A DNA stretch of 64,000 nucleotides. Source: Clostridiaceae bacterium (GTDB lineage Bacteria > Bacillota > Clostridia > DSM-8532). Every line of letters begins with the position of its first letter. The first letter of the stretch is position 1. Under the pieces are notes generated by a model, which ran no database searches, had not been told where the DNA came from, and saw nothing but the letters and a program-made list of their open reading frames with translations. The stretch covers positions 1 through 64,000 of the forward strand of contig JAAYAD010000078.1 of the NCBI GenBank assembly GCA_012719545.1. Reading direction: 5' to 3'. Below, piece after piece: positions 43,213 to 46,126 of the stretch. Both the position numbers and the translations under genes were made by a program.

Positions 43213-43944
43213 CTATAAATTTTGTTTTTCTATAAGATTTTTCCAGTATCTTTTTGGCATGAACTGTCTCTGTAGTTTCAGATTTTTTCTGCTTTCAATG
43301 GCAATAGTATCAAAATATCTCTTCCACAAGGTTTCAAACTCGTCCTGAAAATCTTCCTTTAAGTGTATGGGTTCATCAGTAAACACAACTTCAATGGTAT
43401 TATAAAGGGCACATATCCCCCGTTTTGCGTCATGGATTATCCAGGGCTGGTCAGAAAGCCTTGCTGCGAAATGCTCCGCCAAAAAGGCAATTATATTTCC
43501 GTCAGGCTCAATTTTAGAGTAGTATATACCGTTTTTAAGTTTCCTGAATCTTAATATGCCTAAAAATAAATGGGTTTCTTTTAATACCCTGCTGCTCATG
43601 TCATGAACTTTTAATATATCGGGGTGTTGAAGATATGATAAAACCCGTCTTCCAGTTTTCAATCCTATCTTAATAAAGTTATATATTGCCATGCCCACAT
43701 CGGGACTATCGGAAAGATAGGCCCGGTAAATGGTTTCAAGAGCTTCCCTCCCCATTTTCTCTACAATTGCCTTTTCAACTCTTGCGGATTTCTCAGAGTC
43801 GGACGCTACCTCCATGGCAGGTAACAGGGACAGTTGGTATCCATCCTTTGAAACTATTATATCTTCAGGCTCAGTCTTATTTTTATATGCCTCAAATACG
43901 GCAGTAAGGACTCCTTCAAAAGAGCCGTCCGTCACATAAATCAT
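43213..43944 (-). CDS. DUF4130-family putative DNA metabolism protein (TIGR03915 type)
   Basis: This 243-residue protein matches the 'probable DNA metabolism protein' family. It starts MIYVTDGSFEGVLTAVFEAYKNKTEPEDI and carries the core DVGMAIYNFIKIGLKTGRRVLSYLQHPDI...SRVLKETHLFLGILRFRKLKNGIYYSKIEPDGNI. It ends with RYFDTIAIESRKNLKLQRQFMPKRYWKNLIE. In other bacteria this domain can be fused to a uracil-DNA-glycosylase-like domain, and it usually sits beside the radical-SAM protein that precedes it here. It starts eight bases after that gene's stop, so they form an operon. The biochemical activity is unknown. Confidence 0.88.
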   Translation of the reverse strand: MIYVTDGSFEGVLTAVFEAYKNKTEPEDIIVSKDGYQLSLLPAMEVASDSEKSARVEKAIVEKMGREALETIYRAYLSDSPDVGMAIYNFIKIGLKTGRRVLSYLQHPDILKVHDMSSRVLKETHLFLGILRFRKLKNGIYYSKIEPDGNIIAFLAEHFAARLSDQPWIIHDAKRGICALYNTIEVVFTDEPIHLKEDFQDEFETLWKRYFDTIAIESRKNLKLQRQFMPKRYWKNLIEKQNL

Positions 43945-43952
43945 AATTCACC

Positions 43953-45194
43953 TTACCCAAACATTGAAATCTGACCGACATAAACTTTGGGATCAGTTTT
44001 TTCAGCCAACAATGGGTACAAATCGTCAGTATCCAGGTCAATGCCTCCATAATACTTGCCGTTGCATGTAATGAAATAACGGGCGCGCTTCAATACAACC
44101 CTCATTTTCTTTAAATCCTCGTAATTCAAGGGTGCCAGCCTTCTTGCCCTGACAATCTTCTGGGCCATTTGATATCCGATTCCGGGAACACGCATAAGCA
44201 TTTCCAGAGGTGCCTTGTTGATTTCAACAGGGAACTTGTCAAGATTTCTTAAAGCCCAGTCACATTTGGGGTCCAGATTGATATCAAAGTTTGAATGGGT
44301 CTCATCCAGAAGTTCATTGGCTTCAAAACCGTAAAACCGCAAGAGCCAGTCAGCCTGGTACATTCTATGCTCCCTCAAAAGGGGCGGGCTTGTGTTAAGG
44401 GCAGGCAAATCCTTGTGCTCATTGACAGGAACATATGCCGAATAATACACCCTCTTTAATTTATATCTTTTATAAAGCTCGGACGTAAGGCGCAAAACAG
44501 TAAGGTCATTGTCCCTTGTGGCTCCTATTATCATTTGGGTTGACTGTCCGGCAGGAGCAAAAGTCTGTCTTTTTCTGTATATGGTAAGCTCATTTGCTCC
44601 CTGAATCTGCTCACTTACAAAGGACATGGGCTTTATAATGGACTCATGGCTCTTTTGGGGTGCAAGGAGCTTCAGGCTGGAAACGGTGGGAAGTTCAATA
44701 TTGACACTGATTCGGTCTGCAAGAAGCCCTGCCTCGTGGACAAGCCTTAAGTCGGCTCCAGGAATTGATTTTACATGGATATAGCCGTTAAATCTGTGCT
44801 CATATCTTAGCTTCTTTAACGCGGCAATAATAAGCTCCATGGTGTAATCAGGGCTTTTTACAACTGCAGAACTTAAAAAAAGGCCTTCTATGTAATTTCG
44901 CCTGTAAAATTCAATAGTGAGGTTGCATAGCTCATCGGGAGTAAAGGAAGCGCGCTTTATATCATTGCTGCAGCGATTTACGCAGTATTTGCAGTCGTAT
45001 ATGCAATAATTTGTAAAGAGAACCTTTAATAAAGATATGCAACGACCGTCATCTGCCCAGCTGTGGCAGATGCCAGGCAAAGCGGTATTTCCAACCATTC
45101 CCTTTTTACTTGCCCGGTTGCTTCCGCTTGAGGAGCAGGATACGTCATATTTCGCAGAATCGCCTAATATTGCAAGCTTTTCTATGAGTTCCAT
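43953..45194 (-). CDS. Putative DNA modification/repair radical-SAM protein (TIGR03916 type)
   Basis: This 413-residue radical-SAM enzyme has the cluster motif CIYDCKYC near residue 70 (LLKVLFTNYCIYDCKYCVNRCSND). A helix-hairpin-helix DNA-binding element lies near residue 335 (LMRVPGIGYQMAQKIVRARR). The conserved upstream segment CHSWADDGRCISLLK and the later GATRDNDL also fit the family. The substrate is unknown; DNA base repair or modification is proposed for the family by association with UDG-like domains. The start is the ATG at 45194; a GTG three codons earlier is an alternative and neither has a strong ribosome site. Two LexA-like palindromes lie upstream, which suggests DNA-damage induction. 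Confidence 0.9.
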   Translation of the reverse strand: MELIEKLAILGDSAKYDVSCSSSGSNRASKKGMVGNTALPGICHSWADDGRCISLLKVLFTNYCIYDCKYCVNRCSNDIKRASFTPDELCNLTIEFYRRNYIEGLFLSSAVVKSPDYTMELIIAALKKLRYEHRFNGYIHVKSIPGADLRLVHEAGLLADRISVNIELPTVSSLKLLAPQKSHESIIKPMSFVSEQIQGANELTIYRKRQTFAPAGQSTQMIIGATRDNDLTVLRLTSELYKRYKLKRVYYSAYVPVNEHKDLPALNTSPPLLREHRMYQADWLLRFYGFEANELLDETHSNFDINLDPKCDWALRNLDKFPVEINKAPLEMLMRVPGIGYQMAQKIVRARRLAPLNYEDLKKMRVVLKRARYFITCNGKYYGGIDLDTDDLYPLLAEKTDPKVYVGQISMFG

Positions 45195-45205
45195 ATATAA
45201 CACCC

Positions 45206-45261
45206 AAACATATGTTCTTTTTGTTATTATAGCATATCCTAACGAAAAAAAACATATGTTT
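45206..45261 (-). promoter_or_regulatory. Promoter with two LexA-like operators before the DNA repair pair
   Basis: Two palindromic 12-mers, AAACATATGTTC (45206-45217) and AAACATATGTTT (45250-45261), are centred 44 bp apart, about four helical turns. The first is one base from GAAC-N4-GTTC, the core of the Firmicute LexA (SOS) box. In the minus direction an extended -10, TGCTATAAT, lies between them. One box therefore covers the -35 region and the other covers the leader just before the ATG. The whole block from 45204 to 45263 is itself a near-perfect long inverted repeat. Confidence 0.75.
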
Positions 45262-45283
45262 GGAATATTTTCACTTCATCTGC

Positions 45284-46126
45284 TTACAGGGTCATAAAGC
45301 CTTTGCCGATAATTTCAGAAGTGTTTGTTATTGTAATAAAGGCATTTTTATCGGTTTTTCTTATAAAATTTCTCAGCTCCACAGCCTGTTTTCGTCCCAT
45401 TACGGAAGTAATTATATGTTTCTCTTCATTGGTCCAGGCACCATAAGCAGTATGAATGGTAGCTCCCCGGCCTATATTTTCTATTATGTATTTCTTTATA
45501 GGCTCAGGATTTTCGCTTACAATAACCACCTGCTTCTTAAGGTTGAAGCCTTCAATGACATTGTCGATAATAAGGCCCTTTAAAACCAGACCCAAAACCG
45601 AATACATGCCTATGCGCACGCTGAAAACTAGACCTGCTGCGGTGGCAATAAGTATGTCCGAGGTTAAAAGTGCCTTTCCAATATCAAGATTTGTATACTT
45701 GTTAAGTATTTTTGCTATTATATCAGTTCCGCCTGTGGATGCATTAAGGTTAAATACTATGGCGGATCCTATGCCGGGAAGTCCAATGGCAAAGAACAAT
45801 TCCAGCAAGGTATCGTTTGTCAGGGGATTATTTATGGGGAAAATTACGTCCAAAAGCCATACCATACCCGACAAAGTGAGGCTTGAATATACGGTATTTC
45901 TGGTGAAATCCCATCCTAACAGGGCAAGTCCCAGAATCAGGAACGCAACATTAATTATGAGCATCAGAGCACCTACATTCAGATGTTCAATGTAGTGCTC
46001 CAGAATAATGGAAATTCCGCTTACCCCGCCTGTTGCAAAGTGGTTGGGAATCTTGTAAAAATGGATTCCGCAAGCCACAAGAAGCAAGCCAAGATTAATG
46101 TACAAAAATTTTCTGACCTTTTTCAT
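45284..46126 (-). CDS. YitT-family membrane protein (DUF161 plus DUF2179)
   Basis: This 280-residue protein has five or six membrane helices in residues ~1-170. A cytoplasmic DUF2179 domain (about 220-275) starts ENIGRGATIHTAYGAWTNEEKHIITSVMGRKQAVELRNFIRKTD. The segment FATGGVSGISIILEHY and NLNASTGGTDIIAKILNKYTNLDIG in the membrane part are typical. The family is widespread in Firmicutes and its transport or sensory role is unsettled. It appears to be a single gene; the two LexA-like sites lie downstream of it and serve the next gene. Confidence 0.92.
   Translation of the reverse strand: MKKVRKFLYINLGLLLVACGIHFYKIPNHFATGGVSGISIILEHYIEHLNVGALMLIINVAFLILGLALLGWDFTRNTVYSSLTLSGMVWLLDVIFPINNPLTNDTLLELFFAIGLPGIGSAIVFNLNASTGGTDIIAKILNKYTNLDIGKALLTSDILIATAAGLVFSVRIGMYSVLGLVLKGLIIDNVIEGFNLKKQVVIVSENPEPIKKYIIENIGRGATIHTAYGAWTNEEKHIITSVMGRKQAVELRNFIRKTDKNAFITITNTSEIIGKGFMTL

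Follow-up and report, generated by a model that had tools for sequence, protein, structure and literature searches.

The intergenic region at positions 45195-45283 of the window (the whole 64,000-nucleotide stretch of DNA that was analysed) very probably serves, on computational grounds, as a LexA-repressed promoter of the TIGR03916-TIGR03915 gene pair, which would be derepressed by DNA damage. In the proposed mechanism, LexA dimers would occupy two boxes, the stronger one within a very short leader, at about +3 to +14, and the weaker one on the -35 region, and the two bound boxes would jointly block the binding and escape of RNA polymerase. DNA damage would lead to RecA filaments, LexA self-cleavage and a bicistronic TIGR03916-TIGR03915 mRNA, whose products, a radical SAM enzyme with a DNA-binding HhH motif and a DUF4130 partner, would act in DNA repair. 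LexA binding, the strength of repression, induction and the repair chemistry are the predicted part of this model; what was observed by computation comprises the boxes, how well they agree with the organism's own SOS boxes and are conserved, the operon, and the change of operator type with the host's LexA.

Promoter architecture and the predicted LexA regulon of the organism

The two palindromes flank the sole plausible promoter of the pair (Table 1). Read along the minus strand, the order is AAACATATGTTT (45261-45250), TGCTATAAT (45234-45226), GAACATATGTTT (45217-45206), GGGTG, the ATG at 45194, the TIGR03916 gene and the TIGR03915/DUF4130 gene. Both 12-mers together span 56 bp with their centres 44 bp apart, and each is unique in the 2.95-Mb genome; on the plus strand the proximal box reads AAACATATGTTC. 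The palindrome coordinates, the centre spacing and the intervening extended -10 reported in the earlier note proved exact to the base. The neighbouring gene upstream (45284-46126) runs in the same direction as the pair and stops short of the distal box, which assigns the promoter to the pair. Because of its poor -35, it was missed by a consensus promoter scan, whose counts equalled those in shuffles. The start of the first gene was corrected to the ATG at 45194 from the upstream GTG at 45203 of the open reading frame list, because MELIEKL is the start of the conserved protein, alignments with homologues begin at that methionine and GGAGG directly follows the box in relatives.

Table 1. Predicted regulatory elements and genes of the locus (window coordinates)
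Feature	Position	Strand	Remarks
Proximal LexA box (predicted), GAACATATGTTT	45206-45217	-	Predicted transcript positions +3 to +14 (approximate); adjoins the RBS
Distal, weaker LexA box (predicted), AAACATATGTTT	45250-45261	unassigned	Overlaps the -35 region; kept with substitutions in 8/11 closest relatives
Extended -10 of the pair's promoter, TGCTATAAT	45226-45234	-	Between both boxes; aligned and conserved in relatives
Weak -35 hexamer (predicted), TGTTTT	45249-45254	-	17-bp spacer; within the distal box; inferred from sequence
RBS, GGGTG	45201-45205	-	GGAGG in relatives; precedes the ATG at 45194
TIGR03916 radical SAM protein with HhH (rSAM_link_UDG)	43953-45194	-	660 bits against an NCBIfam cut-off of 343.5
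TIGR03915/DUF4130 partner, second gene of the operon	43213-43944	-	TIGR03915 255.5 against a cut-off of 112.25 bits; PF13566 174 bits

The boxes lie over the promoter or the early transcript, the position of an SOS box, and the geometry that had been held to fit repression (one box in the -35 region, one in the leader) also holds in relatives. The proximal box has the GAAC-N4-GTTY core, and the distal AAACATATGTTT is one base off GAACNNNNGTTY on either strand.

The genome carries one clear copy of lexA (product TIGR00498, 236 bits), and its LexA sequence retains the Ala-Gly cleavage site and the catalytic Ser and Lys. Three boxes are found upstream of this lexA (GAACACTTGTTC twice and GAACATTTGTTT), one upstream of recA (GAACATTTGTTC) and one upstream of dinB (GAACATATGTTC). 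A LexA matrix was built from 100 sites, all taken from the promoters of lexA and recA in this genome or in relatives and none from the studied pair; the motif was present upstream of lexA in 28/29 and of recA in 23/30 of the relatives' regions. The proximal box scored 16.9 bits and the distal box 13.8, ranking first and second in the 64-kb window ahead of a next-best 9.6, although these scores are not fully independent of the GAAC/GTTY core, which the training expression fixes. Set against the median training site (17.5 bits), the proximal box is therefore an ordinary site, and the distal box is weak yet in range. Both palindromes thus top the window and agree with the boxes that this organism has at lexA and recA, which bears out their description as LexA-like. 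The expectation that uvrB would be among the LexA-box promoters failed: no box was found upstream of uvrB in this genome (locus L135), in contrast to many Firmicutes, and the gene was dropped from matrix training.

LexA-like boxes were also seen elsewhere in the genome. The perfect box GAACATATGTTC precedes a gene for an ImmA/IrrE-type (M78) peptidase followed by a large serine recombinase (L115:2456-2467; G000:C81:10455), an arrangement suggestive of a mobile element linked to the SOS response. The same perfect box precedes an open reading frame of about 86 amino acids (L114:2500-2511; G000:C58:20499) for which no Pfam match was found; its surroundings, judged by eye, include possible phage-type genes (a small membrane protein and amidase-like open reading frames). 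A ComM/YifB-like gene of the Mg-chelatase family has GAACATTTGTTT at its start (L117:2419-2430; G000:C62:36918) and is a possible further SOS gene. Finally, a GyrB/ParE-like gene has GAACAAATGTTT about 120 bp ahead of it (L119:2533-2544; G000:C8:9532); parCE is reported to be under SOS control in Bacteroidetes (PMC8565304).

Conservation and replacement of the operator

The proximal box is kept in the same place in all 11 closest relatives, at the Shine-Dalgarno sequence, either directly before it or a few bases away. Eight of them show a recognisable LexA-like box at the distal site, in the forms AAACATATGTTT, AAACATATGTTC, AAACATATATTC, GAACATATTTTC and GAACATATATTC, at 42 to 45 bp upstream and farther in L011. 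This drift in spacing would argue against strict helical phasing of the boxes and for steric occlusion by independently bound dimers. Drifting spacing (42 to 45 bp or more) could also be seen if the proximal box were the sole LexA operator and the distal AAACATATGTTT an AT-rich relic or chance palindrome without regulatory role, as could the deviation of the distal box from GAAC-N4-GTTC on both sides, its absence in L016 and in L018, the locus of the cultured Thermoclostridium caenicola, and its degeneration in L019. We consider a single operator rather unlikely, given that 13.8 bits is inside the range of real lexA and recA sites, that 8/11 relatives retain a LexA-like distal box through different substitutions, and that AAACATATGTTT is the only promoter box in L152 and L203, whose genomes have the canonical motif at lexA. 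Two LexA sites are thus the preferred reading of the promoter.

A single match to the core carries little weight in itself, as the genome contains GAACNNNNGTTY at 55 forward and 60 reverse positions (193 and 181 for a reversed-pattern control), and palindromes might arise by accident in AT-rich intergenic DNA. The probability of such an accident here is negligible in view of the phylogenetic footprint and the control counts. The operator, proposed earlier from this one promoter, recurs upstream of orthologues: among the 80 closest orthologue loci, a Firmicute LexA box was found within 250 bp in 72 and within 150 bp in 69, against a mean of 0.46 loci and a maximum of 3 in first-order Markov simulations of 150 bp. 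Boxes were present in 10/598 upstream regions of other open reading frames in the same loci and in 39/4268 plain tiles. A phylum-wide sample (one genome per species, evenly drawn; 65 genomes over the family cut-off) gave a box in 42/64 within 300 bp and in 39/62 within 150 bp (expectation 0.28). Rates of 69/80 and 39/62, compared with about 1-2% in controls, are the conservation that marks an SOS box. Furthermore, GAAC ranked first among the 256 4-N4-4 palindromes in the close and phylum-wide sets alike; in the close set it had 27 loci against 5 for the runner-up.

The strict box is missing in about a third of phylum-wide orthologues. Among the 18 box-less genomes examined, seven also lack the strict motif at lexA and recA; the remainder mostly have a promoter variant that differs by one or two bases, including the one-base variants GAACATATATTC and AAACATATGTTT, and a few have nothing. 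In four loci of one family (L185, L186, L187 and L188, from genomes G152, G204, G179 and G277) the pair's promoter holds a conserved GAATATATATTC or GAATATGTATTC, and recA of this family has AAACATATGTTC or AAACATTTGTTC, perhaps the result of a drifting LexA motif.

Outside Firmicutes, the gene carries other operators. GAAC-N7-GAAC and CTGT-N8-ACAG are the LexA motifs of alpha- and betaproteobacteria, respectively. The former was found within 200 bp upstream in 12/12 alphaproteobacterial plasmid copies (control tiles 1/339), and a perfect form of the latter, CTGTATAAATATACAG, upstream of the copy in the betaproteobacterium Caballeronia; for E. coli, too, a motif of the CTGT type is quoted (PMC4234289). 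A Parabacteroides copy had none of the three tested LexA motifs. The operator type of the gene follows the host's LexA, and it is difficult to account for different operators at the same gene, in each case the one proper to the lineage, other than by LexA control. Non-LexA regulators can also bind AT-rich palindromes, and the boxes might in principle serve another palindrome-reading repressor, such as a stress or phage regulator. That possibility is highly improbable, because the boxes agree with the organism's lexA, recA and dinB boxes, and the quite different LexA motifs found at the same gene in Proteobacteria would be unexpected under another regulator.

The gene pair and its proteins

The TIGR03915 gene begins 8 bp past the stop codon of the TIGR03916 gene. 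The two genes are adjacent on one strand within about 210 bp in 76/80 close loci, and a further two have gaps of 0.7-1.0 kb (78/80). The TIGR03916 protein has a CxxxCxxC motif with invariant C64, C68 and C71, as well as an HHH_3 match; three further invariant cysteines (C20, C43 and C52) might hold an auxiliary cluster. Its predicted structure, of modest confidence (pLDDT 71), shows a radical SAM barrel like those of HydE, PylB, viperin and LIAS, and this comparison gave no clue to the substrate. A profile search of the PDB with the radical SAM protein returned nothing beyond a match to HhH and a short one to radical SAM.

The partner encoded in the window matches TIGR03915 only, with no C-terminal UDG domain (TIGR03914) of the UdgX type, and the only TIGR03914 match in this genome is below the cut-off and located elsewhere. 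In annotated proteobacterial loci, the partner is called UdgX-family in nearly all, and the two proteobacterial partners tested were fusions of TIGR03915 with a UDG domain of the UdgX type, an arrangement that fits a role in the handling of damaged bases. A sequence search of the PDB with the DUF4130 protein found no match. Its structural model (pLDDT 89.5) gave a best Foldseek E-value of 0.007 and VIA Z-scores of 8.8 and below; the top VIA rows are nearly all of the DHH/DHHA1 superfamily (RecJ, Cdc45 and NrnA), a likeness that is weak but consistent and offers a lead only. Tentatively, and with rather less than even confidence, the pair may be a conserved SOS module whose LexA operator has been repeatedly rewired across phyla and which would encode an unrecognised radical SAM pathway for a specific lesion, with DUF4130 as a remodelled DHH/DHHA1 (RecJ/Cdc45-like) partner docking onto DNA or UdgX.

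Relation to known SOS-regulated genes

COG4277 is presumably the same family as TIGR03916, and the COG1573-COG4277 operon of Bacteroidetes appears to belong to the family of the pair described here. SOS regulation of this UDG operon, which encodes a UDG and an HhH protein, was reported in 2021 (PMC8565304); as cited there, SOS-regulated UDG operons had been reported earlier in Verrucomicrobia and Alphaproteobacteria. It joins a radical SAM gene to a UDG partner, as do the alpha- and betaproteobacterial loci compared here, whereas the Firmicute pair differs in its LexA motif and has DUF4130 alone, without the UdgX domain, as partner. For the C. acetobutylicum orthologue CAC3343-CAC3344, LexA control was predicted in 2013 (PMC3828012). 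The LexA link, which the earlier note took to be undescribed for the family, had thus already been predicted. CAC3343-CAC3344 belongs to another organism, and the accessible part of its description contains neither the two-box architecture nor the cross-phylum operator switch (PMC3828012).

Related enzymes have been placed in the same setting. The spore photoproduct lyase SplB, like the TIGR03916 protein a radical SAM enzyme, acts on DNA and is reported to be SOS-regulated in several species (PMC8565304), and an SOS-themed network has been described in which DUF4130 is grouped with UDGs and radical SAM proteins resembling SplB (PMC3765255). Unlike SplB, the TIGR03916 protein matched no SPL family in family scans, which returned TIGR03916, HHH_3 and Radical_SAM.

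The regulatory link is therefore already known in kind and its novelty is low; what is added here is this genome's member, the two-site promoter, the quantified conservation and the operator switch. The operator evidence links the enzyme pair to the DNA-damage response in Clostridia, Paenibacillaceae and Proteobacteria, and the fact that its operator changes between phyla strongly supports the importance of LexA control for the module.
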